Origin: Lachnospiraceae bacterium
GTDB lineage: Bacteria > Bacillota > Clostridia > Lachnospirales > Lachnospiraceae
Assembly: GCA_014239155.1 (NCBI GenBank)
Contig: JAAZZQ010000060.1
Span: 124,001-188,000 of the forward strand
Reading direction: 5' to 3'
Length of the DNA: 64,000 nt
The notes beneath the pieces were generated by a model. That model searched no databases. It was not told the DNA's origin and saw only the letters and a program-made list of their open reading frames with translations. The position numbers and the translations under genes are program-made. Positions 13,127 through 49,296 of the stretch are shown here, piece after piece. Position 1 is the stretch's first letter. Every line of letters starts with the position of its first letter.

Positions 13127-13226
13127 TTCTGTGGCATTAATGTAACCGTACAAACATAAGAAAGTTTGCAGATGGTGCAGGTACGTATTGTGAACTGATA
13201 GTAGTAAAATATTTTGGAGGATGGGA

Positions 13227-16337: not shown

Positions 16338-16341
16338 TACT

Positions 16342-19432: not shown

Positions 19433-19589
19433 AGGAAATGATATAGGGTAGGGACTGTCCAAATTAACACCTATGGAGATAGTATGTCGAAGAAGCAGGA
19501 AGCCTATTGGCTTTAGACAATGGGTAGTTCACTTTAATACATTATTTGTATATAATATATTAAATTCTAAAATTGGAGATGGAAAATAT

Positions 19590-20282: not shown

Positions 20283-20285
20283 GCA

Positions 20286-21209: not shown

Positions 21210-21366
21210 CCAGCTCCCGCTCCTCATGGCGGGAGTGATTCTTTTTAAAAGTCTGTTTTTCCCAAATTGCAAGGTTAATGCAAGATTCGTGCAAGGTTAA
21301 TGTAAGGTTAGCGTGATAGAATAGTAGACATAAAGAACTTTTATTTTATAAAAGGGAGGTTTTGCG

Positions 21367-22290: not shown

Positions 22291-23068
22291 GCTTCTTATA
22301 TGCGAGTTTTCAAAACTGAAGAGGAAAAAGTTTATATTGTTGGTGGTTCTTTCCGCATTTCTGTTTCCCGTGCCACTGACAATCATGATGACAACGCCGC
22401 AGGCAGGACAATATGACAGCAAAATAGATCTTTTTAATGCTTATTTTCAGTTTGTCATGGGATATGGGGTAGAGCTGCTTCTGCCATGTATGATTGGAGT
22501 GATTGCAGCCATGCTGTTTTTTATGGAACGGGACAATGATACATTTAAAAATCTGCGTACAATTCCTATAACAAGTACACAGATGGTTTTGGCAAAAATA
22601 ATTATGTTATTCTTTTTTGGAATTATTTTTAGCCTGACGTCGGCGGTTATATCAATTATATGCGGCGGGATAATTGCAGAAGTAAGCAGTATTGCTTACA
22701 GGTTATTTTTTGCACTGGAAATGGGAATTTTTATTACAGCCGGAACACTGCCGTTGGTTGTCCTTGTGGTTTTCTTTAGTAGAACTTATGTGTTTTCTAT
22801 TTTATTGTGTGTTTTTTACAGTGTTTTAAGCCTGACAGCCGAATCATCTTTTGGTGCGCTGCCTAAGCTGATGTGCTGGCTGATGCCGATTCCCCTTACA
22901 ACTCTTTGGAGCGCGGGAAATTTAACTTCACATGGTACTATGGATGGCGTAGGAATGTTGGAAAATTTAATCCCAACCACCTTTCAGACAATCGCCATTT
23001 TAACCGTTATTGCTTTGCTTTCTGTCATATTGATTAATTATATGTATAAAAAGAGGAGAGGTGAATGA
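22274..23068 (+). CDS. lanE: Lantibiotic-immunity permease, LanE-like (MutE/EpiE family)
   Basis: This is a 264-residue ABC-2-type permease with six predicted membrane segments and the opening LLICEFSKLKRKKF typical of LanE/LanG proteins. The start is a GTG at 22274 inside lanF; a TTG at 22283 following GGGGGTGAGGGG is an alternative. It forms the immunity exporter with LanF and LanG, which removes the lantibiotic from the producer's membrane. Confidence 0.88.
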   Translation: MRGLLKLLICEFSKLKRKKFILLVVLSAFLFPVPLTIMMTTPQAGQYDSKIDLFNAYFQFVMGYGVELLLPCMIGVIAAMLFFMERDNDTFKNLRTIPITSTQMVLAKIIMLFFFGIIFSLTSAVISIICGGIIAEVSSIAYRLFFALEMGIFITAGTLPLVVLVVFFSRTYVFSILLCVFYSVLSLTAESSFGALPKLMCWLMPIPLTTLWSAGNLTSHGTMDGVGMLENLIPTTFQTIAILTVIALLSVILINYMYKKRRGE

Positions 23069-23069
23069 T

Positions 23070-23849
23070 ATGTTTCGCATGCTTAAAACCGAAATATGGA
23101 AATTAAGGCGGTATCATATGATATGGGCAGGTGTTTTTCTGATGCTGCTTTCTGTCCTGCTTACACTTTTTTCTTCAACAGCATTGGATGGAACAGTTTG
23201 GACGTTTCCTTTCTTTGTGGAACAGGTAATTAAAAATAATGTTACCACCATTTTTCCCATGTGCATTGCTCTGATTGCCGGATATATCATCGCAAGGGAA
23301 GGGAAAGACGATACACTGAAAAGTATTCTGACAATCCCGATTTCTTATAGCAATTTATTATGGGGAAAATTACTTGTTTGTGCGCTGCTTTCGCTGTTTT
23401 TTGGATTGGTGAGTACTGTATTTACAATAATCGCCAATTTAATAATGGGATTTCCAGGGCTTTCCATAGCATCTGCATTACAGACATTGGTTCAGGTTAG
23501 TTTGAACTGCCTGTTTCTGTATATTGCGGTGATGCCAGTAATTGCGTTTGCCGCCCATATACCAAACGGACATATGATTGGAACAATTATTGCTTTTGTT
23601 TATGGCTATGGCGGTATGTTTGCCTCCGGAAATGCAACGATGTCAAATATTTATCCTGTTACGGCAAGTTTAGGCTTAGTCAGTTACCGAAGTTATGATT
23701 CGTCCGTACATTGGAATGCTTTTATCTGTCTGTTCAGTATGATAGCTGCATTGCTGATTTCTGCTGTTTTTATATTTACAGCAAAAGGTAATGTGCCAGT
23801 TCAGACAAAAAAAAAAAAAAAAAAGACTATAAGAAAAAAAGGCTGGTAA
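23070..23849 (+). CDS. lanG: Lantibiotic-immunity permease, LanG-like (MutG family)
   Basis: This is a 259-residue ABC-2 permease with six membrane segments, starting MFRMLKTEIWKLRRYH. The ATG at 23070 with GGAGAGGTGA upstream is preferred to the GTG at 23061 that overlaps the lanE stop. A run of 18 A residues (23807-23824) encodes a poly-Lys stretch close to the C-terminus (QT, six K, TIRKKGW). Slippage there would change the last residues and the junction with the next gene. The third component of LanFEG. Confidence 0.88.
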   Translation: MFRMLKTEIWKLRRYHMIWAGVFLMLLSVLLTLFSSTALDGTVWTFPFFVEQVIKNNVTTIFPMCIALIAGYIIAREGKDDTLKSILTIPISYSNLLWGKLLVCALLSLFFGLVSTVFTIIANLIMGFPGLSIASALQTLVQVSLNCLFLYIAVMPVIAFAAHIPNGHMIGTIIAFVYGYGGMFASGNATMSNIYPVTASLGLVSYRSYDSSVHWNAFICLFSMIAALLISAVFIFTAKGNVPVQTKKKKKKTIRKKGW

Positions 23850-29639: not shown

Positions 29640-30133
29640 CTATTAAATAAAATAACAATAACTTTAAGCCTTGTTGTTGCTATATAAAAAATATAGGTTG
29701 GTATAAGGTAGGATTCCGTAGTCGTCGGCATTGGTGGGAATGTGTATAACTGGCTATCTTATAGAGTTGTAAGTAACTCTGTTTGCAGAATGTGGGAGAG
29801 CAGCACTCAATCGAGTGTATAATCTTGCAGTTACAGGGAATGGAATTTGTACAATATTTTTGAAATACAGAAAACAATATAGCCATTAAAAAGGTTTTGA
29901 CAAAGAAAAGGAAATTATTTCAATGAAACAGTTTAAGAAAGTTTGGATTGTTATTGCCAGTGTTATTATTACAAGGATCGTGTAGGAATTTTGTGAAAAA
30001 AGGGAATTTAATGCTGGATTGTAATTTCTTTTTTTGTCATGAATATGATATTTTTGCCATGAATCTGATTTTCAGCTGGAAGAGATTGCAGTATGATTTT
30101 ACTAAAAATGTAAAAATAAATGGAGGAACAAAA
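29640..30133 (+). other. Gene-poor leader upstream of the GH94 phosphorylase genes
   Basis: This stretch holds no intact gene. At 29923 a GGAAATT site precedes a frame of 20 codons (MKQFKKVWIVIASVII...) that looks like a signal peptide cut off by a stop, probably debris of a lost exported protein. TTGACA occurs at 29897 without a good -10. No certain promoter for the phosphorylase genes was found. Confidence 0.35.
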
Positions 30134-32906: not shown

Positions 32907-35321
32907 ATGCAGTACGGATATTTTGATGATGAGAAGAGAGAGTATGTAATTACCCGACCCGACACCCCTGCTCCGTGGGCAAATTATTTGGGCTCCCCAG
33001 AATATGGAGCAATTATTTCTAACAATGCGGGCGGTTATAGTTTTGCAAAGTCTGGTGCAAACGGCAGAATTTTGCGCTATGTGTTTAATGGATTTGATCA
33101 GCCAGGGCGTTATATTTATCTGCGCGACAATGACAGCCAGGATTACTGGTCTGCGTCATGGCAGCCAGTTGGAAAAGATTTAGATTCCTACCAGAGCAAA
33201 TGTCATCATGGGACAGCATATACCAGAATAGAGGCAGATTACAGTGGTATTCATTCAGAGGCACTTTACTATGTGCCACTTGATAAATCCTATGAAGTGT
33301 GGAATTTAAAAGTAACAAATAATTCTGATACAACAAGAAAGTTAAATATTACTGGATATGCAGAGTTTACAAACAATAATAATTATGAACAGGATCAGGT
33401 CAACCTTCAATATTCAATGTTTATTACAAGAACTGTTTTTGAAAAGGACCGTATTCGCCAGACAATACACGGAAATCTGGATGGACTAGAGGATGGAGAG
33501 GAAGTTGACAACAAACTTGCAATTGACCGTTTCTTTGGACTGGCAGGATCCGAGGTCGCTTCCTACTGTGGAGACCGAGAGAAATTTATTGGACGTTATC
33601 ACGGTTATGGAAATCCTGTAGGCGTAATTAATGGAGATCTTGGCGGAGCGTTAAGCTATAACGAAAATGCTTGTGGCGCTCTTACAACTACATTGACACT
33701 AACAGCAGGAGAGACAAAAGAAATTGTTTTTATTCTGGGAATGAAATACAAGGAGGAAGCGGACAGAATTCTTGAGAGTTATCAAAATCCGTCAGAGACC
33801 TGTACAAAGGAGTTAGAGGAGCTTATTTCCTACTGGCATGAAAAATTGTCCCATTTTCAGGTAAAAACACCAAGCCCAGCATTTGATACAATGATTAATA
33901 CTTGGAATGCCTACAACTGTTTTATGACTTTTATTTGGTCGCGGGCTGCTTCTTTTATTTACTGTGGTCTTAGAAATGGTTACGGCTATCGTGATACTGT
34001 GCAGGATATTCAGGGTATTATTCACTTAGCACCTGAGATGGCAGTTGAGAAAATTCGGTTTATGCTCTCTGCGCAGGTGGATAATGGTGGCGGACTTCCA
34101 CTTGTAAAATTTACACATAATCCCGGGCACGAGGATACACCCGATGACGCTTCTTATGTGCAGGAGACAGGACACCCAGCATACAGAGCAGATGATGCAC
34201 TTTGGCTGTTCCCTACCGTTTATAAATATGTGTCAGAATCTGGAAACTTGGCATTTATCGACGAAGTGATTCCGTTTGCCAACAAGGGCGAAGGAACAGT
34301 GTATGAGCATTTAAAGCGCGCAATTGATTTTTCTATGAATCATTTAGGACCACATGGAATGCCTGCAGGACTTTATGCGGACTGGAATGATTGTCTGCGT
34401 CTTGGAAAAGATGGGGAGTCCTCCTTTGTAGCGTTTCAATACTATTATGCAATGACAATTTTGAAAAAATTTGCTTCTTATAAAAAAGATGACGCTTACA
34501 TAAAATATCTTGATGAGAAACAAGAACAATTGGGCGACTTAATACAGAAACTTTGTTGGAATGAGGACCGATTTATTAGAGGGTTTACAGAAAAAGGCGA
34601 GGTTATTGGAAAACGGACAGACAAGGAAGCAAACATGTGGTTGAATCCGCAGAGTTGGGCTGTTATCAGTGGATTTGCTACAGATGCGCAAGCAGATTCA
34701 GCATTAAATCTGGTAAATGAACGATTAAACACAGAATACGGTGCAATTCTTATGGATCCTCCTTATCATGTGGATGCGTTTGATGGTGCGCTGGCGGTGA
34801 TTTACAATGCGGGTGTCAAGGAAAATGCAGGTATTTTCTCACAGTCTCAGGGGTGGATTATTCTTGCGGAAGCGCTGCGAGGACATGGAGAGCGGGCATT
34901 TAATTATTTTATGGAAAATGCGCCTGCTGCCCAGAATGACAGAGCAGAAATCCGCAGGTTGGAACCCTATTGTTATGGTCAGTTCACTGAGGGAAAAGCA
35001 AGTCCGCATTTTGGACGCTCTCACGTGCATTGGCTGACAGGCACCGCTTCGACAGTGATGGTTGGGTGTGTCGAGGGAATCCTTGGTATGCGCCCTGACT
35101 TTGGTGGATTGAAAATTGCGCCTTCCGTGCCCAAGGATTGGGATCACTTTGAAATTGACAAGGACTTTAGAGGAAAGCATCTTCATATTGTTGTCCAAAA
35201 TCCCGACCACGTTGAGTCTGGCTGCAAATCTTTGAAAGTAAACGGTCAGGAGATGGAAGGAAATTATATTCCAGCAGACATTCTTAAAGTAGAAAATGAA
35301 ATAGAGTTGTTTTTGTCATAA
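32907..35321 (+). CDS. cbp: Cellobiose phosphorylase (GH94)
   Basis: This 804-residue protein begins MQYGYFDDEKREYVIT, with the FDD...REYVIT..DTP.PW.NYLG opening of classical cellobiose phosphorylases. The active-site segments NGYGYRDTVQDIQG, HNPGHEDTPDDASY and YADWNDCLRLG (general acid Asp) are present, and it ends with a jelly roll. It converts cellobiose plus phosphate to glucose 1-phosphate and glucose. GGAGAG precedes the ATG. Because it is paired with a longer GH94 enzyme and a GH16 glucanase is downstream, it may handle the beta-1,4 part of a mixed-linkage glucan; related beta-glucobiose specificities cannot be excluded. Confidence 0.9.
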   Translation: MQYGYFDDEKREYVITRPDTPAPWANYLGSPEYGAIISNNAGGYSFAKSGANGRILRYVFNGFDQPGRYIYLRDNDSQDYWSASWQPVGKDLDSYQSKCHHGTAYTRIEADYSGIHSEALYYVPLDKSYEVWNLKVTNNSDTTRKLNITGYAEFTNNNNYEQDQVNLQYSMFITRTVFEKDRIRQTIHGNLDGLEDGEEVDNKLAIDRFFGLAGSEVASYCGDREKFIGRYHGYGNPVGVINGDLGGALSYNENACGALTTTLTLTAGETKEIVFILGMKYKEEADRILESYQNPSETCTKELEELISYWHEKLSHFQVKTPSPAFDTMINTWNAYNCFMTFIWSRAASFIYCGLRNGYGYRDTVQDIQGIIHLAPEMAVEKIRFMLSAQVDNGGGLPLVKFTHNPGHEDTPDDASYVQETGHPAYRADDALWLFPTVYKYVSESGNLAFIDEVIPFANKGEGTVYEHLKRAIDFSMNHLGPHGMPAGLYADWNDCLRLGKDGESSFVAFQYYYAMTILKKFASYKKDDAYIKYLDEKQEQLGDLIQKLCWNEDRFIRGFTEKGEVIGKRTDKEANMWLNPQSWAVISGFATDAQADSALNLVNERLNTEYGAILMDPPYHVDAFDGALAVIYNAGVKENAGIFSQSQGWIILAEALRGHGERAFNYFMENAPAAQNDRAEIRRLEPYCYGQFTEGKASPHFGRSHVHWLTGTASTVMVGCVEGILGMRPDFGGLKIAPSVPKDWDHFEIDKDFRGKHLHIVVQNPDHVESGCKSLKVNGQEMEGNYIPADILKVENEIELFLS

Positions 35322-35479: not shown

Positions 35480-36223
35480 CTACCATGTTTTGTGATAATG
35501 ACGGTCACGATATTTCTTGGGAGTGAGACCAACATATTTTTCAAAGGTTTGGATAAAATGACTTTGCGAGGAGAACGCAAGGTAATTGGCAATATCAATT
35601 AAACTATAGTCGGAGTATTTGAGAAGGTTTTCAGCCTTCTCAATTTTTTTCTCGCGGATATAATCGCTGATAGAAACACCAAGATTTTGTTTAAAGAGGC
35701 GCGACAGATAGCTTGGTGACAGTGTCGTGTAGTCTGCCAGTTCATTGATGGTGATCCGCTCGTTAATATGGCTGTAGATATAATCTGTGCAAAGCATAAT
35801 CGGTTTGGAAAGAATTGTGTTTTTTTGTAACACAAGCATTTTTCCTGTGAAGTCAAGCACCATATCTTGATGTAAATCTGCGATAGCTTGAATCGTAGTG
35901 CAGGAGTCCATTTTTAAGATATAGAAATCGCTAAGCCGATAAGCTTGTTCTAGCTCTAGCCCTCCCTCTACACAATGTCGTGTGATAAGAGCGACTGTGA
36001 CAATAAAATGATATTTTTGATTTGTCAGTGGGTTTTTGGATAACACTCCCATTCCTTCAGGATTGGTAAAATCACCCTGATTTAGATTTTCTCGGACAAA
36101 TTCCATATCACCGCTTTTAACAGCAGTATAAAAGGAATATTCTTCCTCCATTGGACGATGATATGCTTCTGATTCATTATCATACAGCTCTCGTCGATAC
36201 CATTCGCTTCTTAAACTGTTCAT
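35480..36223 (-). CDS. AraC-family transcriptional regulator
   Basis: This 247-residue protein has an N-terminal helical sensor part of unknown type (about 1-145) and a C-terminal pair of helix-turn-helices (ITINELADYTTLSPSYLSRLFKQNLGVSISDYI and LIDIANYLAFSSQSHFIQTFEKYVGLTPKKYR). AAGGAGG precedes the ATG. It is divergent from the sugar-binding lipoprotein gene, across a region with a perfect 18-bp palindrome, so it is likely the local activator of the transport, chemoreceptor and glucanase genes, and perhaps of the GH94 genes. Confidence 0.92.
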   Translation of the reverse strand: MNSLRSEWYRRELYDNESEAYHRPMEEEYSFYTAVKSGDMEFVRENLNQGDFTNPEGMGVLSKNPLTNQKYHFIVTVALITRHCVEGGLELEQAYRLSDFYILKMDSCTTIQAIADLHQDMVLDFTGKMLVLQKNTILSKPIMLCTDYIYSHINERITINELADYTTLSPSYLSRLFKQNLGVSISDYIREKKIEKAENLLKYSDYSLIDIANYLAFSSQSHFIQTFEKYVGLTPKKYRDRHYHKTW

Positions 36224-36420: not shown

Positions 36421-37878
36421 ATGAAGAAAAAAATCATTAGCAGTTTATTGGCAGTGTCTATGATTATGACAGCGCTTACAGGATGCGGGGGAGGCGATAA
36501 GCCGTCCAATGATGCACAGGGGGCAGCCACATCATCCGGCAATGAAACAGCGGCGCCGTCATCATCTGGCAATGAGGATGCAGCAGAACCAGCACCTGCA
36601 ACGGACGAAGGAAAAGTCATTAATATTTATAGTTTTAATGATGAGCTTCGCACACGTATCACGGCAGTTTATCCTGAGATTGAGAGCACGTCAGAAGACG
36701 GGACTTCCTCAACCTTAAAGGATGGAACAGAGATTCGTTGGATTATCAATCCAAATCAAGATGGTGTATATCAGGATAAGCTTGATGAGGCGCTTGGTAA
36801 TCAGTTGACCGCAGCCGATGACGATAAGGTTGATATTTTTGCGGCTGAGCTGGATTACATTGTCAAGTACACGGATGCAGATATTGACGCTGCAATGCCA
36901 CTTGAGTCTTTGGGAATCAATCCTGATACCGATCTGGCAGATCAGTTTGAATTTACAAAGACTGTTGCAAGCGATCAGAATGGTGTGATGAGAGCTTCCA
37001 CATGGCAGGCATGTCCGGGTGTTCTAGTGTATCGCCGTGACATTGCAAAGGAAGTTTTTGGCACAGATGATCCTGTAGAAATTGGTAAAAAGACGCAAGA
37101 CTGGGATACGATGAAAGCGACAGCAGAGGAGTTGAAAGCAAAGGGATATTATGCATTCTCAAGCTATGCAGATACATTCCGTACATATAACAATAGTATG
37201 GAAGAAGCATGGGTAGCACCTGGAGAGACGGTTATTCGAGTTGACCAGAAGATTCTTGACTGGGTTGAGGATTCTAAAGAGTGGAAGGAAGCAGGCTACT
37301 TTGACCCTACTGTAAAGGGGCAGTGGAATTCAGACTGGTTTACAGCAATGAGTTCTAGCGCTAAGGTATTTGCATTCTTGTTCCCAGCATGGGGAATTGA
37401 CACACAGTTGAAACCAAACTGGGATGGTGAAGAAGGCGCATGGGCTGTTACAAATGCACCATTGTCATATAATTGGGGCGGAACATTCGTTCTTGCGGCA
37501 GAAGGAACAGACAATCCACAGCATGTAAAGGATATTCTTCTTGCATTGACAGCAAACAAGGACAATCTGACAAAGATTTCAAAAGAGTATGCAGATTTTA
37601 CAAATGCGAAATCTGTTATGCAGGCAGCAGCACAAGATGACGCTTTTGCATCAGATTTTCTGGGTGGGCAAAATCCGTACACTTACTTTACACCTGGCGC
37701 AGACGCAATCAAGATGGCTCCACTGTCAGCATATGATCAGGGATGTGTAGAATTGATTCAGAATACATTTGGTGATTATCTTCAGGATCAGATTGACTAT
37801 GACAAGGCAAAAGAAAACTTTGAGACAGCAATTAGAGAGCGCTATCCTGAAATCACAGAGATTCAGTGGCCAGAATAA
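36421..37878 (+). CDS. Carbohydrate ABC transporter substrate-binding lipoprotein
   Basis: This 485-residue family 1 (MalE/UgpB-like) binding protein has a lipoprotein signal (lipobox LTGC, Cys about 22), a Ser/Pro/Ala-rich linker (about 25-60) that tethers it to the membrane, and two lobes with the typical DYIVKYTDADI, LVYRRDIAKEVFG and WGGTFVLAAEGTDNP segments. GGGAGG precedes the ATG. It binds sugar or oligosaccharide and delivers it to the two permeases that follow. In this locus the ligand is probably a beta-glucan oligosaccharide (inference). Confidence 0.93.
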   Translation: MKKKIISSLLAVSMIMTALTGCGGGDKPSNDAQGAATSSGNETAAPSSSGNEDAAEPAPATDEGKVINIYSFNDELRTRITAVYPEIESTSEDGTSSTLKDGTEIRWIINPNQDGVYQDKLDEALGNQLTAADDDKVDIFAAELDYIVKYTDADIDAAMPLESLGINPDTDLADQFEFTKTVASDQNGVMRASTWQACPGVLVYRRDIAKEVFGTDDPVEIGKKTQDWDTMKATAEELKAKGYYAFSSYADTFRTYNNSMEEAWVAPGETVIRVDQKILDWVEDSKEWKEAGYFDPTVKGQWNSDWFTAMSSSAKVFAFLFPAWGIDTQLKPNWDGEEGAWAVTNAPLSYNWGGTFVLAAEGTDNPQHVKDILLALTANKDNLTKISKEYADFTNAKSVMQAAAQDDAFASDFLGGQNPYTYFTPGADAIKMAPLSAYDQGCVELIQNTFGDYLQDQIDYDKAKENFETAIRERYPEITEIQWPE

Positions 37879-37938
37879 AACCATTGACTGCGGTGCATTT
37901 GTGCACCGCAGTATTTAGAAAGAAGGGAGAGATAGCTT

Positions 37939-38889
37939 ATGAAACAAAAACGTAAAAAGATAGACTACTCGAAGTGGGGATATATTTTTATTCTTCCGTT
38001 TTTTGCATGTTTCTTTATTTTTTCGCTCATCCCATTGATCGATACAATCCGATACAGCTTTTTTGAATATTATCGTTCTGGATTGAAGCAAATTGGTCCT
38101 AATTTTATCGGGATGGAAAATTATGCCAGTCTGCTGCAATCCGATATGTTAAAATATGCAGGAAATACTTTGATTTTGTGGCTGATTGGCTTTGTTCCGC
38201 AAATTGTTATCGCACTTTTGCTCGCTTCTTGGTTTGTAGATGCGCGGCTTAAGATTCACGGCCAGCAGTTCTTTAAGGTAGTAATTTATCTGCCCAATCT
38301 AATTATGGCTTCTGCGTTTGCAATGTTGTTCTTCACATTGTTTTCAAACAAGGGACCTATCAATTCTATTCTGTTGTCTATGGGTCTAACAGAAAGTCCA
38401 ATTGATTTTATGGGGACTGTATTTGGCACAAGGTCATTGATTGGCGTAATGAACTTTTTAATGTGGTTTGGAAATACGACAATTATGCTGATGGCGGCAA
38501 TTATGGGTATTAGCCCAGATATCTTTGAGGCGTCAGAGATTGATGGCTGTAATAGTATACAGAGATTTTTCTACATAACCCTTCCAATGATTCGTCCAAT
38601 TCTTGCATACACATTAATTACTTCAATTATTGGTGGTCTGCAAATGTTTGATGTACCACAGATTTTAACGAATGGTCAAGGTAGTCCAGACAGAACATCT
38701 ACAACATTGATTATGTTCCTCAACAATCATTTAAAGAGCAAGAATTATGGTATGGCGGGTGCGTTATCTGTTTATCTGTTTATCGTGAGCGGTATCTTAT
38801 GCTTTATTGTATATAAGATAACCAATGATGATGATCCAGATGGTTCTAAGGCAGCTGCAAAGAAGAGAAAAAGGATGGAAAGGAGATAA
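37939..38889 (+). CDS. Sugar ABC transporter permease, MalF/UgpA type
   Basis: This 316-residue protein has six membrane segments and the EAA loop EASEIDGCNSIQRFFYITLPMIRP, where the permease docks to the ATPase. It starts MKQKRKKIDYSKWGYIFILPFF after AGAAGGGAG. A strong GC-rich inverted repeat (GCGGTGCA/TGCACCGC, 37890-37910) lies in the 60-bp gap after the binding protein, possibly tuning the ratio of binding protein to permease. Confidence 0.93.
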   Translation: MKQKRKKIDYSKWGYIFILPFFACFFIFSLIPLIDTIRYSFFEYYRSGLKQIGPNFIGMENYASLLQSDMLKYAGNTLILWLIGFVPQIVIALLLASWFVDARLKIHGQQFFKVVIYLPNLIMASAFAMLFFTLFSNKGPINSILLSMGLTESPIDFMGTVFGTRSLIGVMNFLMWFGNTTIMLMAAIMGISPDIFEASEIDGCNSIQRFFYITLPMIRPILAYTLITSIIGGLQMFDVPQILTNGQGSPDRTSTTLIMFLNNHLKSKNYGMAGALSVYLFIVSGILCFIVYKITNDDDPDGSKAAAKKRKRMERR

Positions 38890-38893
38890 GATA

Positions 38894-39739
38894 ATGAAAT
38901 CAAAAGGATATAATAGTTTTCGTACTATTTTTGCACATGTATTACTTGTTATACTGTCATTTATGTGTCTGTTTTTCTTCTATATCCTGTTTGTCAATTC
39001 GACACGTTCCCATGCGGATTTACAGAAAGGGTTTTCTGCATTGCCCGGGAGCCATTTTTTGACAAATTTAAAAAATGTGACAAATGATGGAACCTTTCCA
39101 ATGGTGCGCGGTATTATAAACAGTTTGATTGTCTCTGGCTGCTCAGCGGCAATCTGTACTTATTTTTCCGCTTTGACTGCATATGGACTTTATGCCTATG
39201 ATTTTAAATTAAAAAAGATTGCATTTACATTTATTATGGCGATTCTTGTAATGCCAACGCAAGTTACAGCAATGGGATTTCTGCGTTTGATAACAAAGAT
39301 GGGTATGAATGATTCTCTGCTTCCTCTGATTATTCCTTCAATTGCATCACCCTCTGTATTCTATTTTATGTACAGTTATTTACAGTCATCGCTTCCACTC
39401 TCATTAGTTGAGGCGGCAAGAATTGATGGCTCCAAGGAATTTCGTACTTATAACCAGATTGTTCTCCCAATTATGAAACCGGCGATAGCAGTGCAGGCAA
39501 TCTTTACCTTTGTGGGATCTTGGAATAATTACTTCGTTCCAGCGCTGGTAATCCAGTCAAAGGATAAGATGACCGTGCCAATTCTTATCGCGCTTCTTCG
39601 AGGAGCTGATTATATGAATCGTGATATGGGAAAAATATACATGATGATTATGGTGGCAATTGTTCCAATTATTCTTGTATATTTGATTCTCTCAAAGTAT
39701 ATTATCGCAGGTGTGACACTCGGCGGTGTCAAAGGATAA
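38894..39739 (+). CDS. Sugar ABC transporter permease, MalG/UgpE type
   Basis: This 281-residue protein has six membrane segments and the EAA loop EAARIDGSKEFRTYNQIVLPIMKP. ATG 38894 has AGGAG just upstream and lies 4 bp after the first permease; the longer frame from 38825 overlaps that gene. No ATPase gene follows; as in many Firmicutes a shared MsmK-like ATPase probably energises the importer. Confidence 0.93.
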   Translation: MKSKGYNSFRTIFAHVLLVILSFMCLFFFYILFVNSTRSHADLQKGFSALPGSHFLTNLKNVTNDGTFPMVRGIINSLIVSGCSAAICTYFSALTAYGLYAYDFKLKKIAFTFIMAILVMPTQVTAMGFLRLITKMGMNDSLLPLIIPSIASPSVFYFMYSYLQSSLPLSLVEAARIDGSKEFRTYNQIVLPIMKPAIAVQAIFTFVGSWNNYFVPALVIQSKDKMTVPILIALLRGADYMNRDMGKIYMMIMVAIVPIILVYLILSKYIIAGVTLGGVKG

Positions 39740-39818: not shown

Positions 39819-40787
39819 ATGGTGCGGAAAAAATACAGGATGCTTTTGGCGGTGGCAGTGCTTGTATCGTTTGGAACCGGGTGTCAGTCAAAAGATGCAA
39901 ATAGAAATACACAAATCTATTACTCCGCGATTGAAGACGGGGATTATTATGAGGGATGGGCAAGTCAACTGCAGGAGCAGGCAGCGGCATGTGGTGCTTC
40001 CTTTGATGTAGGATACGCCCAGAACTCTGTGGAGACACAAGATGCGCAGATAAAGAGCGCCGTTGCAAGTGGATGCGATGTGTTTCTGTGTGGTCCAGTC
40101 TCGCCAGACACAGCGACGGAGATCAAGGCAGCGGCAGGGAACACACCGATTGTCTTTATTAACAATGCGCCGGAGGATAAGGTATTGGAGAAGAATCGCT
40201 ATATTTATGTGGCATCGGATGAATATATGGCAGGGCAATATCAGGCAGAATATATTCTGGAAAAGTTTAGCCAAAAACAAGAAATCAATATTGTAGTGCT
40301 GAAGGGACCAAAGGATGCATCAGGCGCGGTTGGCAGAACAAAAGGACTCAAACAAACGCTGAAAGCCAGTGGAAAGAAAATTAATTATGTTTTTGAGGAT
40401 TATGCTGATTGGAATAATGAGAAGGCACAAGAATTGATGGAGTTGTTTTTAAGAACAGGGCAGCCTGTTGACTGTGTGGCGGCAAACAATGATGATATGG
40501 CGCTTGGTGGTCTAGCGGCATTTGAGCAGGCAGGATTTAACACAGATGAAATATTGTTTTTGGGGGTAGATGCTTCTGCGGGCGGTTGTCAGGCAATTGT
40601 AGAGGGAAGAATGGATTTCACAGTCTATCAGCCCACTACAGCACAGATTACTTCCGCTGTGGAGGCGGCGGATAGACTGGCTTCGGGCAAGTCGATTGCA
40701 GATATGGAAGGTGCATCGGAGGATGGGAAATATATTTTGATACCATTTGAGAAAGTGGATAGCCAAAATGTGACACAGTACCAATAG
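39819..40787 (+). CDS. RbsB-like sugar-binding lipoprotein (type 1 periplasmic binding fold)
   Basis: This 322-residue protein has an N-terminal signal with Cys in GTGCQSK (a weak lipobox) and a periplasmic-binding-protein type I fold: QIKSAVASGCDVFLCGP, TPIVFINN, YVASDEYMAGQYQAEYIL, VVLKGPKDA, RTKGLKQ, VDCVAANNDDMALG, LFLGVDA and MDFTVYQPTTAQ. These are signatures of ribose/galactose-type binding proteins. AGGAGGTG precedes the ATG. No transporter of the RbsAC kind is present. The chemoreceptor gene starts 30 bp downstream, so it probably presents a sugar to the receptor, as ribose- and galactose-binding proteins do with Trg (inference). Confidence 0.92.
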   Translation: MVRKKYRMLLAVAVLVSFGTGCQSKDANRNTQIYYSAIEDGDYYEGWASQLQEQAAACGASFDVGYAQNSVETQDAQIKSAVASGCDVFLCGPVSPDTATEIKAAAGNTPIVFINNAPEDKVLEKNRYIYVASDEYMAGQYQAEYILEKFSQKQEINIVVLKGPKDASGAVGRTKGLKQTLKASGKKINYVFEDYADWNNEKAQELMELFLRTGQPVDCVAANNDDMALGGLAAFEQAGFNTDEILFLGVDASAGGCQAIVEGRMDFTVYQPTTAQITSAVEAADRLASGKSIADMEGASEDGKYILIPFEKVDSQNVTQYQ

Positions 40788-40817: not shown

Positions 40818-43316
40818 ATGACAGGGAAGACAAAATTTATATCCATAAAAGTAAAGCTCTTGGGGATTATCCTGCCTGTGATTATCGTTATTATGACAGT
40901 TCTCACAGGGTTGTCTTATTATGTATCAAAAAATGTAATTCAGTCGAATGCACATGATTTGTTACAGACATCAGTGGAGAGCCAAGCTTCTGAGATGGAG
41001 GCATGGCTGGAGAGGAATCTTGTGTCTGCCGGTGTCGCAAAACAGGCTGTTGAGGAAATGGAGTTTGATGATGCGCAGTTACAGGATTTTTTGGATTCTT
41101 ATTACAATTATGACAATAACTATTCTGAGGGATTTTATATTGCAGATATGGACGGAACGCTTCTTCGGGCAAAGCCTGTGAAAAGTGTCGCGCTAAGAGA
41201 GCCAGACGCAGAGGGAAATTATTTAAATAATGGAAATTTTGCGGTTGCGGAGAGCCTGACAGACGATAGGGATTGGATGTTTTTAACGGCATTGGAAGGT
41301 GAGGCACAAGCACAGATTCAGGAAAACGAGGTTTCTTTTGACATCACCAATGAGGGGACAGTGGATTACAGTGTACAGTTTGTGCAGCCGAATGTTCCTG
41401 TGAAAAAGGACGCAGTGTATACAGTCCGTTTTGACGCCTATGCGGATGCGGATCGGACAATGAAAGTCAGTGTCACAGCGCCAGATAGGGAATATAAGCG
41501 CTATCTTGAGGATACTGTTGTTTCTCTGACCACGGAAAAGCAGACATATTCTTATGAGTTTACTATGACAGATTATGATGATGCGAATGCACGCATGGAA
41601 TTTAATCTTGGTGCGGCGGGTTCGACAGCAGGTGTGAAGGTTGGCAACGTGTCGATTGTCATGAGTAAACAGCCACGTTCTACAGAAAATATTGAGAGTG
41701 TGTCAAAGACAGATGTGACGCAGACAGAGTGGTTCCGTGATGGACTGACTCGGGTGAATGTGGGATTTACCAACGCTTATACAAATGAAAATGGAATACC
41801 AGTCATCAGTGCCTGTGGGATGTTGCGTACAGCATCAAACAATGTACGTGTTATCTCGATGGATTTGTCATTGGATAAGGTTAGTGTCTATGTCAATAGT
41901 TTTGTAAAGATGGAGAACGCCGAAGCGTTTTTGGTAAATGCAAATGATAATACAATTCTTGCGTCGCGCGATAAAACAATGATTTCCAAGAAAATGGACG
42001 AGGTGGACAATGTTTTTATAAAAGATATTGCAGCTAAAATTTCTCAGGGGGAGATGGAACTGACAGAAATAGATGGAAACATTACTGTTTTTCAAGAAAT
42101 TTCGGGTACGGATTGGGTGCTGGTATCCTATGTTCCAGCGGCTATCGTATATCGTGATTTAAATGGTATTAGAAATATTATGATTCTTTTTGGTGTTGCT
42201 TCTGTGTTGGCGTTAACTATATTGATTGAACGAATTATCCATGTGGTGATTCATCCAGTGCGTGGTCTAACAGAAGTAATTAGGAATATGACAGGAGGTA
42301 ATTTTACTTCTTACAATGCTGTGAAAAGCAGTGATGAAATTGGCGTGATGAGTCGGTGTGTTGAACAGTTTATTGCCACAATGCGTGGTATGATTGCCTC
42401 CATAGATAATGTATCACACACACTGCACGCTCAGGCGGATAATAGCAAGAATGTGTCCAGTCAGATGTTTGATGCATCAAAAAATCAGAATCAATCAATG
42501 AAGGATTTAAACACAACAGTCGAACAGCTTTCTATCTCCGTCAATGAAATTGCACAGAGTGCAACAACACTGGCTTCTCTTGTGGCAGAGACCAAGGAGG
42601 ACGGTGATGGCATGAATGGCAGGATGAAGGAGACCGTCAGCATTTCTCAGAAGGGGAAAGAGGTTATGCAAGGTGTGGATATGGCCATGCAAAGCATTGA
42701 TAATTCTGTGCGTCAATTGCAGCGTGCAATTGATGAGGTAGGAAATGTGTCAGGTGAAATTACCAATATTACAAGAGTAATTGGCGATATTGCAGATGAG
42801 ACCAATCTGTTGTCGCTAAACGCTTCCATTGAGGCAGCGCGCGCGGGCACAGCAGGAAAAGGATTCACTGTGGTAGCGTTGGAAATTGGCAAACTGGCGC
42901 AGACAAGCATGGAGTCAGTGAAACATATTGATAAGCTTGTTTTAGAGATACAAGCACTAATTGGAGATGTTATCGAGCAGGCAAACGACAGTGTGGGGAA
43001 TATTAACAACAGTAGTGCATTGATTGGAAATGCGGTGACAACATATGACACAATTTTTGAGAATATTGTCGTGGTTGGAGAACTGACACAGCAGATGATA
43101 CAGAAGGTGGAGCAGGTAGAGGATGTCGCGCGAAATGTAGCAGCAATCTCGGAGGAGCAAGCAGCAAGTTCACAGGAAATACTTGGCTCATCGGATATTT
43201 TGGTAGAACAGGCGGATAATCTGATGACTAATAGTGAGATTGTGGCAAAGGAATCCGAGGAGCTAACCACATCAGCTGAGGCGTTGGAGTCACAAATTCG
43301 GATGTTTCAAGTATAG
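40818..43316 (+). CDS. Methyl-accepting chemotaxis protein with a carbohydrate-binding module inside its sensor domain
   Basis: This 832-residue chemoreceptor has a membrane segment at about 14-34, an extracytoplasmic sensor (35-450), a second segment (about 451-475), HAMP and a long MCP coiled coil with the hairpin tip [18 protein letters not shown]. The sensor reads as a dCache-type domain split by an inserted CBM4/9-like module at about residues 125-285, which starts [17 protein letters not shown]. This module aligns over its whole length with one in the GH16 glucanase encoded next (shared [22 protein letters not shown]). The rest of the sensor ([25 protein letters not shown]) is Cache-like. 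It likely signals to CheA on binding polysaccharide or its fragments, and it follows the RbsB-like gene by 30 bp. Confidence 0.93.
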
Positions 43317-43399
43317 TGCCTTGTAGGAAGCTGTATCAGTTATTTTTCTACAACGCCTAAAAGACTTTCAGAGTCTATTTTTTCAAAAGAAGGAGGTGG

Positions 43400-43435
43400 A
43401 AAAACAAAAGTCTGCAAGGTAACTGTAAACAAGCA
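43400..43435 (+). pseudogene. Remnant of a bacterial Ig-like (Big_2) domain end
   Basis: After a GGAGGTGG sequence, the bases at about 43398-43431 encode GKTKVCKVTVN, matching the end of Ig-like repeats in the next gene (GKSTVCKVTVK near 44050). It is out of any gene and followed by a stop within about 20 codons. It is probably a scar of a deletion or duplication. A weak hairpin (AGACT/AGTCT, 43362-43376) with a T run precedes it. Confidence 0.45.
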
Positions 43436-43473
43436 GTTTTTTAATGAGCTGCCCTATAATCTAAGAAAGGAAA

Positions 43474-46400
43474 ATGCAGGTGAAAAAGAAAGTACATAGG
43501 TCAATAAAGACATTGATTCTAACAGTTGTATTTGTACTTCTCGTGGGAGGAGGAGGGATAGCCACCTGGGCGGAAAACAATATCTCTATTAATATCTCCA
43601 GCCATACAATCAATATTGGTGACGAGGAGAATCCGCTGATACTCTGGATCAATAATTTGCCAGAAGGCAAAAAGACCAAATGGGTCTCTTGGAATGAAAA
43701 TATAGCAACTGTGGATCAAGAAGGGGAAAAAGGTGTAGTGACAGCACTTCGCAAAGGAAAAACCATTATTTCATCAGGAATTGGTTTTCCGCGCGAGACA
43801 TGTCTTGTCACGGTGGTGGAACCAAGTATTAAACTAAATAAAACATCGGCTGTTATTTATTGTGCGCCAACGAAAGAGAATACAAAAGCTGTTTCTAGTG
43901 GTGATACAATACAGTTGAAGGCGACGGTAAAGGGCGCGGATAAAAATACACTGTGGAGTAGTAGCAACAAGGCAGTTGCCACTGTGGATACAACAGGAAA
44001 AGTGACTTCTGTTTCCGCAGGAACGGCGAATATTACCGCGACGGCAAATGGAAAATCAACCGTTTGCAAAGTGACTGTGAAGGATAATGCGCTCTCGCTC
44101 AACCTTAATGAAATGCAATTAAGCACAAAAGGTACAGGAAGTTCTATAAAACTTGTTCCAGTGATTGTCGGTGCAACTAAAAAAGTGACATGGACAACAT
44201 CAGATGCAACGATTGCAACCGTAAAGGGGGGTAAGGTCACAGGAAAGAAAACTGGAGAGGCAGATATCACTGCGACAGCAAACGGTGTTTCAGCAAAATG
44301 CCATGTCAAGGTAGAGGAAGGCTTAATCTCTATTAATGAGGAGCATGTGCAGCTTTATATGACAAAAAATAATACTGCCGAGACAAAGCAATTGAAAACA
44401 AACGCCTCAAAAACGGATACTGTTGTGTGGAGTAGCAGCGATGAGAAGATTGCGACAGTGGACAGTAAAGGTATGGTGTTGGCAAAGGGTGCAGGAACTG
44501 CTATAATTACTGCAGTATGCGATGGCAAAGCAGATACCTGTATGGTCAAAGTGACAGATACAGCAACATCAATTGCGGAGAGAATTGTTCATTTAAAGAC
44601 AAAAGGTACTGCAAAGACTTATACATTGGATTGTCGCGTAACAGGACGAAAAAATGCTGTAAAATGGAAAAGTTCTGATACAAAAGTGGCTTCTATAAGC
44701 AAGGGAAAGATTACAGCAAAGAAGCCTGGAACTGCGATTATTACAGCGGAGGCAAACGGCGTCACGGATAAGGTTCTTGTGACAGTACAAGAATTTACAC
44801 CCTCCATAACCTTAAATCAAAGTGAGTATATGCTTTACACAAAGGGAAAAGGAAATACAGTTACAATAAAGGCAGTTGTGGATGGAACAAATAAAAAGGT
44901 AGTATGGGACAGCAGTAACAGAGATGTTGCAGAAGTAAATGCAAAGGGCAAAGTCACTGCAAAAAAAGCGGGTAGGACTCTAATAACAGCAAAGGCAAAT
45001 GATGTGACTGCCAAGTGTTGGGTTCGCGTGAAAGAATCTAAAGTAACGCTTGAGAAGAAGTATTATTTGTTAAACGTTGGTGATACAGAAGTATTAGCGG
45101 CGGATGTTATCGGTGCAAGTCAATCCATAACATACAAGTCATCAAACACCAAAGCAGTTGGGATTAAAAAGGGTGTTATTACAGCCAAAAAGGATGGAAG
45201 TGCTACAATCACTGTGACAGCAAATGGTATTAAAGAAGAGTGTTACGTTGTGGTGACAGATTGCAAAGAACATGATTGGAAATTGGCAGAAGGTGCAGAG
45301 AAAGAGAAGGAAGATATTGTGGCGACTTGTGAGGAAAGAGGACTTACCACATATATCTGTACCAAATGTAACGGAAAAAAACAGGAAATTGTCGAGCCGT
45401 TAGGACATCAGTTTGGGAGGTGGACAGTGACAGTTAAGGCGACAGAAAATGCAGCAGGTTTGGAAAGACAGATTTGTAAACGATGTGATGTAGAGAATAC
45501 CAGAAGTATCCCTGCAAAAGGGAAAAGCGATATTGCGGAGGCATATAAGCTTGTCTGGGAAGATGAATTTGACGGGGATAAACTCAATCTCAATGACTGG
45601 AATTTTGAGTACCATGAACCCGGCTGGGTGAATGCAGAGTTACAAGAGTATGTGGATTCTGAGAAAAATACTTATGTCAAAGATGGAAAACTTTACATTC
45701 AGGCACTAAAAGAAATAAGAGACGGAAAAGCCTATTACACATCAGGAAGAATTAACACAAAAGGAAAGAAGAATTATCAGTATGGAAGATTTGAAGTAAG
45801 AGCAAAAGTTCCAAGCGGAAAAGGATTTTTGCCTGCCTTTTGGATGATGCCAGAAGATGAAAGTTATTATGGACAGTGGCCAAAGTGTGGTGAGATTGAT
45901 GTGATGGAGGTTCATGGAAGTGCGCTTTCCACAACATATGGAACCCTTCATTTCGGGGAACCACATACACAGAAGCAAGGCAGTTATACCTTGGCAGAAG
46001 AACAGCCAAATTTTGGACAGGATTTCCATATCTTTGCGTGTGAGTGGGACCCTGACGAGTTTCGATTCTATGTGGATGATGTACTGTTTTATACAGTCAA
46101 CGATTGGTTTACCCAAAAACCTGGATTTGGGAAAGTAGCTTATCCTGCACCATATGACCAGCCATTTTATATGATACTGAATTTGGCTGTCGGCGGTAGT
46201 TGGGTAGGATACCCAGATGAGGACGATAAGTTTGAAGAAAATGCACAGTTTGTTATTGATTATGTTCGGGTATATCAAAAAGATAATTATGATACAGACG
46301 TCGACAAGCCAGAAAATGAAGTAAAGCTTAGAGATCCAGACGAGACAGGAAATTATATTGTCAATGGCGATTTTGCAAAAGTGGAGGATTTAACCAAGGA

Positions 46401-49296
46401 AGACTCCAACTGGCAGATACTTTTTGCTAATGGCGGCGCTGCAACAGCAGAAATATTTGATAATGCATTGCATATTACATCAACAAATGCTGGCACAGTA
46501 AACTATGGCGTGCAGGTAGTGCAGGCAAATCTGCCAATGGAAAATGGTGCAAAGTATAAGCTTACTTATGATGCGTATGCAGAGGAAGCACGCACTATGA
46601 TTACGGGAATATCCGCTCCTGATAGGGGATATATCCGCTACTTGGAGGATAAAACAGTAAATTTGACCACCGAGAAACAGACATATGAACATATTTTTGA
46701 TATGACTGCGGACAGTGATGCAAATGGCAGAGTAGAATTTAATCTTGGAAATCAAGGTTCGATTGCGAAAGTTCATATTAGCAATGTGAGACTAGCGAAG
46801 GAAGGCGATGCTGAAAAAGAGGAAAAAGGCGTTTTACCTGATGGCAATTATGTTTATAATGGACAATTTAATGAAGGCAATGAGCCAGGAAGACTGCGCC
46901 TTGCGTATTGGGATTGGGATATTAGACAATGTAAAGGTGCAAGTGTATCCGTTACAAATGACAGCATACGCGAATTAAAGGTTGTTGTGCCAGAGTCTGT
47001 AAATGGGCTGGACAATGTATCTGTATATCAAGAGGACATTGCGATTTCTGGCAAAAAGAAATATATTCTCAGTTTTGATGCCTATGCAGATGGAAATAAG
47101 ACCATACAAACAACTGTGGCAGGAAAAACTTTTGACAGTGCATTGACAACAGATAAAACAAGCTATAAATACGAGTTTGAGACACCAGCGGATTTGAGTG
47201 GAAGCGAGATTTGCTTCTTACTTGGAAATGCAGGTACAACATATATTGACAATGTGTGTGTCCGGGAAGATTGTATGATTGTCAATGGAGACTTTTCTAA
47301 CGGATTACTGGGTTATGAAGTATATGTGAATGACGCGGCAAAAGTTTCGGATTATATCGTAGATTCGTTAAATGAAAAAGATGCATTTTCTATGGATATT
47401 ACGGACACAGGTGATCAGGATTGGTATATTCAATTAAAACAGAGTGGCATTAAGCTTGAAAAAGACAAGTGGTATAAATTCTCATTTGATGCCAAGTCAA
47501 CAGTAGACAGAGAGATTATGTATGCGCTGCAAAGAGATGGCACAAGTGATGATAACTGGACACCTTACTCTGGGCAGCCAAAGGCGGCGTTGACAGCAGG
47601 ATTCCAGACATTTGAAAAAGTATTTCAAATGAAATCAGATACAGATGCAAATACAATTCTTAGTATCTCTATGGGAGCTGTTGGTGGAAAACAAATTGCG
47701 CAAAAGCACACAATTGTAATTGATAATATTAATTTGGAAGAGACAGAAGCTCAGGAGGAGCCAGTAGAACCACCAGTAGAGCCAGGAGAGAATATGATTC
47801 AGAATGGTGACTTTGAAGCGAGTGATGCGCACTGGGTAAATGCAGTGACACCTCCAGGTGAAGCTGAGGTAAGTTTTGCAGAGGGGAAAGCAGTTTATCA
47901 TATATCCAATGTTGGAACAGAGGATTGGAATGTACAGTTAAAACATGCTGAGCTTTTAACACTGGAACAAGGTGCATCTTATCAAGTTCAAATGAGGATA
48001 AAGTCTACTGAGTCAAGAACAGTAAAATATGCGTTCTTAAATCCGGCATATGATTGGTATGGGGGAGAAGATCTTATATTAAGCGCCAATGAGGAAAAAG
48101 AAGTGGATTTTACATTAAATGTAGAAAAGCCTACAGATAATGAGATTACATTTGTTATCTCAATGGGGCAGATTAAAGATAACGAGACCCAAGAATTTAT
48201 TCCTACACCATCATCAACAATTGAAATTGATGATATTCGTGTTGTGAAAATCAGCGGAGGTGGAGATACGCCAGAGAATCCAGACGATCCTATAACAGAG
48301 AATATGATTCAAAATGGCGATTTTGCGAATGAGAAGGAAAACTGGACAGATTATGTGGATAGCGCAGCGGCAGCAACAACTGATTTTATACAAAATAAAG
48401 CGCGATATGAAATCACGAAAGCTGGAACCGCAGACTGGAATGTGCAGTTAAAACAGGAAGGTCTTACAATGGAAGCAGGCGCATCATACAAACTAGAAAT
48501 GAAAATAGGAGCTTCCATAGACAGAGATGTGAAAGTGGCATTTATGGGAGCAGGTGATGCATGGCATGGAGGAACAGATATTCGTCTGACAAAAGATAAG
48601 TTAAAGTCTGTAAGCCGTATTATTAAACTGGAAGACAAAGAGATCACAGGAACAATAGCATTCCAGATTTCGCTAGGTCAGCCAGACGGCGCTGAACTTG
48701 CAGCACATGCAATAGAGATCTCAGATATTCGTCTCACAAAGGTTGAGAGTGGAGCAGATGCAGGTGAGGAGACAGAGACAGACCAAATTATTACCCCGCC
48801 AGAGAATAAGGAAGGAGAATCCAATCCAGAAGATACCAACATGCAAGACAAAAAGCTAGATTCCGAGGAGGATTCTAATTTAGAAACAGATACAACAAGT
48901 GATGCGGAGGAATCAGAGTCTGCTACGCAAGAAGAAGAGACAGAATCTACAACAGAAGAACCTTCAGAGACAGAAGAGACAGAATCTACAACAGAAGAAC
49001 CTTCAGAGACAGAAGAGACAGAATCTACAACAGAAGAAGTAGAGAGTACAGAAGAATCTTCAGAGACAGAAGAGACAGAATCTACAACAGAAGAACCTTC
49101 AGAGACAGAGGAAACAGAATCTACAGAAGAATCTTTGGAGACAGAAGAATCAGAGAATACAGAAGAATCTTTAGAGACAGAAGAGATAGAATCTACAACA
49201 GAAGAAGAATCTTTGGAGACAGAAGAATCAGAGAACACAGAAAAAACTTCAGAGATAGAAGAATCAAAGCGTACAAAAGAATCTTCAAACAAATAA
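43474..49296 (+). CDS. Giant secreted GH16 beta-glucanase (laminarinase/lichenase type) with Ig-like and CBM4-type modules
   Basis: This 1940-residue protein has a signal peptide (to about residue 33), then seven Ig-like Big_2 domains (about 35-595; each with W/Y..S, VATVD, GKVTAKK.G.A.ITA), a Cys-rich segment with paired CxxC (about 597-685), and the GH16 catalytic domain (about 690-940). The active site is GEIDVMEVHG with nucleophile Glu807, Asp809 and acid/base Glu812; the loop before it and FRFYVDD fit beta-1,3 or 1,3-1,4 glucanases. Five CBM4/9-like modules follow (about 950-1110, 1120-1265, 1268-1425, 1441-1592, 1610-1757), each opening with N(G)xF. The tail (about 1780-1940) is Thr/Glu-rich repeats with no LPxTG or membrane anchor. 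It would release oligosaccharides outside the cell for the importer and GH94 enzymes. An AAAGGA site precedes the ATG. Confidence 0.92.
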   Translation: MQVKKKVHRSIKTLILTVVFVLLVGGGGIATWAENNISINISSHTINIGDEENPLILWINNLPEGKKTKWVSWNENIATVDQEGEKGVVTALRKGKTIISSGIGFPRETCLVTVVEPSIKLNKTSAVIYCAPTKENTKAVSSGDTIQLKATVKGADKNTLWSSSNKAVATVDTTGKVTSVSAGTANITATANGKSTVCKVTVKDNALSLNLNEMQLSTKGTGSSIKLVPVIVGATKKVTWTTSDATIATVKGGKVTGKKTGEADITATANGVSAKCHVKVEEGLISINEEHVQLYMTKNNTAETKQLKTNASKTDTVVWSSSDEKIATVDSKGMVLAKGAGTAIITAVCDGKADTCMVKVTDTATSIAERIVHLKTKGTAKTYTLDCRVTGRKNAVKWKSSDTKVASISKGKITAKKPGTAIITAEANGVTDKVLVTVQEFTPSITLNQSEYMLYTKGKGNTVTIKAVVDGTNKKVVWDSSNRDVAEVNAKGKVTAKKAGRTLITAKANDVTAKCWVRVKESKVTLEKKYYLLNVGDTEVLAADVIGASQSITYKSSNTKAVGIKKGVITAKKDGSATITVTANGIKEECYVVVTDCKEHDWKLAEGAEKEKEDIVATCEERGLTTYICTKCNGKKQEIVEPLGHQFGRWTVTVKATENAAGLERQICKRCDVENTRSIPAKGKSDIAEAYKLVWEDEFDGDKLNLNDWNFEYHEPGWVNAELQEYVDSEKNTYVKDGKLYIQALKEIRDGKAYYTSGRINTKGKKNYQYGRFEVRAKVPSGKGFLPAFWMMPEDESYYGQWPKCGEIDVMEVHGSALSTTYGTLHFGEPHTQKQGSYTLAEEQPNFGQDFHIFACEWDPDEFRFYVDDVLFYTVNDWFTQKPGFGKVAYPAPYDQPFYMILNLAVGGSWVGYPDEDDKFEENAQFVIDYVRVYQKDNYDTDVDKPENEVKLRDPDETGNYIVNGDFAKVEDLTKEDSNWQILFANGGAATAEIFDNALHITSTNAGTVNYGVQVVQANLPMENGAKYKLTYDAYAEEARTMITGISAPDRGYIRYLEDKTVNLTTEKQTYEHIFDMTADSDANGRVEFNLGNQGSIAKVHISNVRLAKEGDAEKEEKGVLPDGNYVYNGQFNEGNEPGRLRLAYWDWDIRQCKGASVSVTNDSIRELKVVVPESVNGLDNVSVYQEDIAISGKKKYILSFDAYADGNKTIQTTVAGKTFDSALTTDKTSYKYEFETPADLSGSEICFLLGNAGTTYIDNVCVREDCMIVNGDFSNGLLGYEVYVNDAAKVSDYIVDSLNEKDAFSMDITDTGDQDWYIQLKQSGIKLEKDKWYKFSFDAKSTVDREIMYALQRDGTSDDNWTPYSGQPKAALTAGFQTFEKVFQMKSDTDANTILSISMGAVGGKQIAQKHTIVIDNINLEETEAQEEPVEPPVEPGENMIQNGDFEASDAHWVNAVTPPGEAEVSFAEGKAVYHISNVGTEDWNVQLKHAELLTLEQGASYQVQMRIKSTESRTVKYAFLNPAYDWYGGEDLILSANEEKEVDFTLNVEKPTDNEITFVISMGQIKDNETQEFIPTPSSTIEIDDIRVVKISGGGDTPENPDDPITENMIQNGDFANEKENWTDYVDSAAAATTDFIQNKARYEITKAGTADWNVQLKQEGLTMEAGASYKLEMKIGASIDRDVKVAFMGAGDAWHGGTDIRLTKDKLKSVSRIIKLEDKEITGTIAFQISLGQPDGAELAAHAIEISDIRLTKVESGADAGEETETDQIITPPENKEGESNPEDTNMQDKKLDSEEDSNLETDTTSDAEESESATQEEETESTTEEPSETEETESTTEEPSETEETESTTEEVESTEESSETEETESTTEEPSETEETESTEESLETEESENTEESLETEEIESTTEEESLETEESENTEKTSEIEESKRTKESSNK
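48937..49260 (+). repeat. In-frame tandem repeat encoding a Thr/Glu/Ser tail
   Basis: A 39-bp unit (13 codons, ETESTTEEPSETE) is repeated exactly at 48937-48975 and 48976-49014 and then in variant forms to about 49260. Repeats this similar invite slipped-strand changes in copy number, always by whole codons. Confidence 0.85.

Follow-up and report, generated by a model that had tools for sequence, protein, structure and literature searches.

Bacterial sensing of polysaccharides, as against small sugars, is an open problem, on which a receptor encoded in a Lachnospiraceae MAG from a gut bacterium may bear. The window analysed here is a stretch of 64,000 nucleotides of contig JAAZZQ010000060.1 (assembly GCA_014239155.1), whose own numbering is used below; in it a methyl-accepting chemotaxis protein (MCP) carries a carbohydrate-binding module (CBM) and lies beside a GH16 enzyme with modules of the same family. 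How did such a module come to sit in a chemoreceptor, and what could it do there? On balance we lean towards a reading in which an older sensor, composed of a dCache MCP and an MglB-like protein, gained a CBM4 module and became a two-input β-1,3-glucan chemoreceptor.

Architecture of the receptor and its inserted module

The receptor is encoded by an intact open reading frame at 40818..43316 (+ strand, 832 aa). Pfam places a HAMP region and an MCPsignal domain at 42234..43181 (+), the latter with 105.8 bits to PF00015 (cut-off 34.6) and the former with 22.6 bits, below the cut-off of 25; HAMP likewise scores 23.6 bits in the receptor L040 and exceeds the cut-off in the receptors L047 and L045 and in the CBM-less MCPs L048 and L049. 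The sensor itself comes in two parts, both on the + strand. The first (aa ~38-118, 40929..41171) is recognised from the alignment, the ectodomain model and Foldseek, and the remainder (aa ~295-446, 41700..42155) from Foldseek matches to PctA and Mlp37, with the Pfam profile MCP-like_PDC_1 below its cut-off, which among five others scanned was exceeded only in L048. The model of the ectodomain (aa 1-469) is of moderate quality (pLDDT 68.5, pTM 0.51, residues 121-162 mostly under 50); it keeps Cache elements on either side of the CBM and matches PctA, Mlp37 and CtaA with Foldseek E values of 1e-8 to 6e-8. Its fold matches are led by dCache receptors, CBM4 and the MCPB-MCPC model 9a69, and the PDB matches include 1gui, a CBM4, as well as dCache receptors such as PctA. 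From this predicted structure we assign the ectodomain to the tandem Cache fold of dCache chemoreceptors. PctA, Mlp37 and CtaA share with the window MCP a Cache fold, an MCP signalling domain and probably a HAMP, but they contain no inserted CBM and their ligands are amino acids and other small molecules.

The module (aa 134-265, 41217..41612, + strand) matches PF02018 with 54.3 bits against a cut-off of 25.9, and the whole genome has six such matches, one in this MCP and five in the GH16 enzyme of the window. Modelled alone, the module reaches a pLDDT of 79.9 and a pTM of 0.79, and a fold search with this model ranks 1gui, from the laminarinase Lam16A, first (TM 0.74/0.80); 1gui is also the nearest solved structure by sequence (3.9e-13), and all of the closest solved structures are CBM4. 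With a profile score above the curated cut-off and a β-sandwich fold, the segment belongs to CBM4 (Pfam CBM_4_9).

Where the module sits is evident from MCPs that do not have it. In their alignment rows the first Cache strands lead directly into a W(F/Y) segment, whereas in 13 CBM-containing MCPs ~170 extra residues separate that segment from the first strands of the distal Cache (the 13 were aligned with 11 CBM-less MCPs, those of the 17 then available that passed a motif filter). In the window MCP the inserted segment spans aa ~119-294 (41172..41699, +). Searches with the window MCP showed the same pattern, in that its two Cache pieces matched sister MCPs of ~670 aa separately, ~175 residues apart, and one uninterrupted sister sits on contig C40 of the same genome. 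A CBM4-type module is thus inserted into the distal Cache loop of the receptor, which confirms the original prediction that it interrupts a Cache-like sensor. Structure prediction bears out the β-sandwich and the presence of Cache on both sides, although the moderate quality of the ectodomain model leaves the placement of the module on the Cache tentative. According to one report, CBM4 termini lie close together, which makes insertion into a loop structurally easy, and a CBM4 has apparently been inserted into an enzyme module, EngU of GH148 (PMC5725463). EngU and the window MCP are alike in that a formerly contiguous domain is interrupted; the host domain is a glycosidase in the former and a Cache in the latter.

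Five residues of the module (Y184, Q187, R213, Y226 and Y229) are invariant across 11 receptors and align with W, Q, R, W and Y of 1gui; we take these 1gui residues to line the binding cleft. D223 aligns with a His of 1gui, and two of the aligned positions have Tyr in the receptor modules where 1gui has Trp, a difference that counts against reading the protein as a glucan receptor.

Origin, spread and constraint of the module

The neighbouring enzyme (43474..49296, +, open reading frame intact) is of laminarinase type, with seven Big_2 domains, a GH16 catalytic part that matches the laminarinase 3azx (7.8e-56), five CBM_4_9 modules and a C-terminal tail (48700-49290) that by eye is an acidic Glu/Ser/Thr repeat in which no sortase motif was seen. 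Its first CBM_4_9 (aa 945-1107, 46306..46794, +) is a paralogue of the receptor module: MCP residues 102-280 and GH16 residues 934-1107 are identical at 88 of 180 positions (49%, BLASTP E 1e-44), and both modules exceed the CBM_4_9 cut-off. The original prediction had read this relationship, and the shared sequence islands and their order, correctly. The other four modules of the enzyme have 27-31% identity to that of the receptor, over part of their length; the one that the receptor module resembles is placed directly after the catalytic domain. This paralogy is old, because at the DNA level the best matching piece reaches only 65% over 274 nt (E 1e-9).

A further part of the prediction, that the module arose by copying inside the locus, is not supported with the present GH16 gene as the source. 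In a tree of 49 modules (13 receptor, 29 first enzyme and 7 other modules), that of the window enzyme falls in an enzyme-only clade of 19 rows (95/90) with no receptor module inside, and GH16 modules of other genomes are closer to that of the receptor (up to 67% identity, vs 52% for the window enzyme); recent copying from the neighbour was accordingly rejected. A single clade of the 13 receptor modules is not rejected in this tree (p-AU 0.511), but just 3% of 200 bootstrap trees recover it. Their nearest relatives are the GH16-associated first modules, and the preamble LRxPDxxGNY precedes 10 of the 13 receptor modules, 14 of the 29 first enzyme modules and none of the 7 others. The preamble counts and the module tree thus make an enzyme module of the first-GH16-module type the probable source, though one other than that of the present neighbour. 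The direction of transfer would have been from enzyme to receptor, because the enzyme form is more widely spread.

Searches recovered 22 loci with 17 distinct CBM-receptor ectodomains, among which two pairs are more than 95% alike. Fifteen belong to Lachnospiraceae (nine in records assigned to the family and six in genomes searched within the family of the window), while L042 and L047 come from unclassified records; at least four genera (g1, g30, g77 and g193) are represented in the searched genomes. Full-length matches numbered 4 of 299 in the family draw, 9 of 38 in the genus draw, where one further possible receptor is interrupted by a contig end, and 11 of 194 among relatives. In the class and phylum draws, in which at most four candidates were scored per genome and misses are possible, the genome's own receptor was the only match (1/391 and 1/398); the draws overlap and are not additive. 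The prospect of similar fusions elsewhere, raised in the original prediction, is borne out by the 17 distinct receptors, which form one group, and finds no second case: across 36 regions that surround CBM_4_9 matches (most of the frames being 550-1000 aa long, and three regions reaching a contig end), the CBM profile matched 15 ORFs and the MCP-signal profile one, and among the matches listed no ORF had both.

We constructed MCP and lipoprotein phylogenies from 12 pairs with the CBM, leaving out L043 and L126-L129, and 17 pairs without it. With the module columns removed, a 100/100 branch divides the 12 CBM-MCPs from the 17 CBM-less MCPs, and under midpoint rooting the former are nested inside these sisters, which favours one gain. 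The module would thus have been gained by the receptor rather than lost in the sisters.

The module is also under purifying selection about equal to that of the Cache, while the linker downstream of it drifts. In comparisons with L038, L039 and L040, dN/dS is 0.075, 0.058 and 0.097 for the CBM and 0.079, 0.056 and 0.113 for the Cache (a fourth comparison was saturated in dS), ratios that are approximate because synonymous sites are near saturation throughout; the 12-residue linker after the module (285-296) is 17-25% identical in four comparisons. That the insertion is neutral or vestigial and simply tolerated, as the ease of loop insertion with close termini could allow (PMC5725463), is very improbable in light of a module dN/dS as low as that of the Cache, of the invariant residues common to the receptors and 1gui, and of the persistence of the module in 17 distinct receptors, with at least four genera among the searched genomes.

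The proposed lipoprotein partner and the surrounding locus

Directly upstream of the MCP, a gene at 39819..40787 (+), which ends 30 nt before it, encodes an MglB-like sugar-binding lipoprotein (PF13407, 156 bits; PDB 8fxu, 1.2e-28; 93 bits with the NCBIfam MglB profile, under its cut-off of 420) that we propose as the partner of the receptor; the original prediction had overlooked this gene. An MglB-like gene lies just upstream of all 17 distinct CBM-receptors (in L043 the contig holds the gene end only) and just downstream of the MCP in all 17 CBM-less pairs, which come from 16 regions (L048-L062 and L067) chosen among family-search matches; the lipoprotein gene thus precedes that of the MCP in the CBM clade and follows it in the pairs without the CBM. 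A binding-protein gene is therefore paired with its receptor, as in the MglB-Trg type. One of the genomes holds two MCP-lipoprotein pairs ~8 kb apart (L056, 3965-6985 and 14582-17621). In E. coli, MglB presents sugar to the MCP Trg, and the lipoprotein may similarly contact the receptor ectodomain. In all 29 aligned partners a signal-like segment ends with a Cys that follows G or S, as in lipoproteins.

The partner appears to have changed along with the receptor. In the lipoprotein tree a 100/100 branch likewise sets the CBM-clade partners apart, and their stem is long (0.57). The mirror-tree correlation between MCP and lipoprotein is 0.92 for all 29 pairs; taken separately, the CBM clade gives 0.93 and the rest 0.73, and none of 2000 permutations was as high in any of the three sets; this congruence is equally expected from co-inheritance of the two genes as neighbours. 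Fourteen positions separate the two groups of partners, defined as those with one residue in at least 80% of the CBM-clade partners and one in at least 70% of the others. At position 167, which is aligned in firm register to a His of MglB that we take to be a ligand contact, all 12 CBM-clade partners have Ala whereas all 17 CBM-less partners have His. Changes also occur at positions 41, 43 and 44, which presumably fall in the MglB segment that holds sugar contacts; for 41-44, the register relative to MglB may be off by one residue. We read these differences as a likely change of partner ligand when the pair entered the glucan locus.

These observations bear on whether the CBM signals at all. 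Sensing could be performed by the lipoprotein and the Cache alone, with the CBM as a non-signalling concentrator or tether for glucan fragments, much as CBMs on enzymes act as concentrators; the lipoprotein pairing exists without the CBM in all 17 CBM-less MCPs, and the linker C-terminal to the module evolves fast. We nevertheless consider this rather doubtful, as the module is inserted in a distal Cache loop instead of at an end and the partner differs at recognition positions in the CBM clade alone.

The genes further upstream fit a β-glucan utilisation locus, with one departure. GH94a (29948..32863, +; its true start is probably downstream, the match beginning at aa 77) is of laminaribiose phosphorylase type (PDB 6ggy, 5e-293), and GH94b (32907..35321, +) matches an N,N'-diacetylchitobiose phosphorylase over its full length (PDB 8bou, 1470 bits), a match that displaced an earlier label of cellobiose phosphorylase. 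They are followed by an AraC-type regulator (35480..36223, -) and by an ABC importer (36421..39739, +) with two permeases and a putative binding protein (36421-37878), which has no Pfam match and was labelled by eye and position. A scan for promoter- and terminator-like sites gave counts within ~2 standard deviations of those in shuffles. Across 13 CBM-receptor loci with flanks (L037-L047, L063 and L064), a GH94a homologue is present in all 13 and a GH16 gene accompanies the receptor in 7; around L041 and L042, ~10 kb of sequence in each direction contains no GH16, and the contig ends near the receptor in L043, L044, L045 and L063.

With its chitobiose-type phosphorylase the locus presents a mixed substrate picture, and one guess is that laminarin-type and chitobiose-type enzymes together would suit fungal cell walls. 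The module might accordingly bind another glycan (chitin-oligosaccharide, cellulose or mixed-linkage glucan) in a locus aimed at fungal walls or mixed material; GH94b speaks for this, as does the inclusion of cellulose- and xylan-binding modules in CBM4, seen in the structure matches and in PMC3975366. We think it unlikely, given that the best match in both sequence and fold is the laminarin-binding CBM4-2 and that GH16 and GH94a are of laminarin type. That the receptor CBM reads β-glucan is plausible from sequence and modelling, because its nearest solved relative is this laminarin-binding module and the locus is of laminarin type. CBM4-2 of Lam16A is described, in the same source, as binding the middle of a single β-1,3-glucan chain (PMC3975366).

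A proposed model for glucan sensing

In the scheme that we favour, the ancestral sensor consisted of two genes, for a dCache MCP and an MglB-like sugar-binding lipoprotein. A single CBM4 insertion in a Lachnospiraceae ancestor would have placed a module like those found after GH16 laminarinase domains in the membrane-distal Cache, in the loop past its first strands, and the two genes would then have been fixed in a β-1,3-glucan utilisation locus. Extracellular laminarinase activity would free soluble β-1,3-glucan chains; the CBM would bind such a chain beside the Cache, and the re-specialised lipoprotein would bring it a second, smaller sugar. Ligand binding would shift the Cache, the HAMP and the signalling domain, and output through CheA and CheW would bias swimming towards the glucan. 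Both the ligand and the sign of the response are what we infer. The receptor ectodomain in Lachnospiraceae presumably lies at the membrane beneath the monoderm wall, where large or insoluble glucan probably could not reach it, so that soluble chains are the more likely ligand than bulk polymer. It is possible, and we suggest it tentatively, that the CBM truly signals, measuring the polymer while the co-evolved lipoprotein measures a breakdown product, and that cells compare both inputs.

The genome has chemotaxis and flagellin genes, with 37 MCPsignal, 5 CheW-domain and 11 flagellin matches. A CheA with Hpt, P2, H-kinase_dim, HATPase and CheW domains is encoded in the window at 7845-9983, with by eye no further chemotaxis gene adjoining it, and another CheW-domain ORF of 729 aa lies on contig C61. 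Elsewhere in the window, 13221-18462 is a probable lantibiotic cluster, with a LanM-type lanthipeptide synthetase (DUF4135, LANC_like) and, after it, a C39-peptidase ABC transporter, and beside the cluster at 19473-23849 are response regulator, kinase and ABC genes, assigned by eye. A receptor that mainly controls adhesion or locus expression, and not swimming, would recall the MCP-type genes among regulators of Roseburia and E. rectale polysaccharide loci described in PMC5320581; given its complete MCP signalling domain, and the flagellins, CheW and CheA that the genome encodes, we regard this as quite improbable.

Several known systems come close to the proposed receptor. CBMs serve as extracellular glycan sensors on a membrane signalling protein in the RsgI anti-sigma factors of Clostridium thermocellum; unlike the window MCP, these control sigma factors and gene expression, not chemotaxis, and their CBM is not known to lie inside a Cache. 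CBM4-2 of the Thermotoga Lam16A (1gui) and the modules of GH16-CBM4 laminarinases are of the same family as the receptor module but are carried by enzymes, whereas here the module is carried by a signalling protein. A binding protein presents sugar to an MCP in the MglB-Trg system and is proposed to do so in that of SPH1118, and here an MglB-like gene adjoins the MCP. SPH1118 of Sphingomonas A1 is pectin-binding, with a proposed MCP contact, and the part of that report at hand, in contrast to the window MCP, speaks of no receptor CBM (PMC7055323). Strong chemotaxis to laminarin has been reported, and in the part of that source at hand a SusD-type route is raised as a possibility without a receptor being named (PMC10700628). 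Among titles and abstract openings on chemoreceptors with CBM, laminarin or Cache and on CBM4, no CBM inside an MCP was described; the architecture may sit unremarked in domain databases. What seems new is a dCache receptor with a putative binding-protein partner that probably acquired an enzyme-type CBM.

This receptor has a polymer-binding module within its own sensor, the CBM-less sister in the same genome is a natural control, and CBM-receptors are also present in records with strain names (L039, L041 and L047), so that polysaccharide sensing becomes directly testable. For the bacteria that carry it, the receptor may let cells steer towards the β-glucan they eat.
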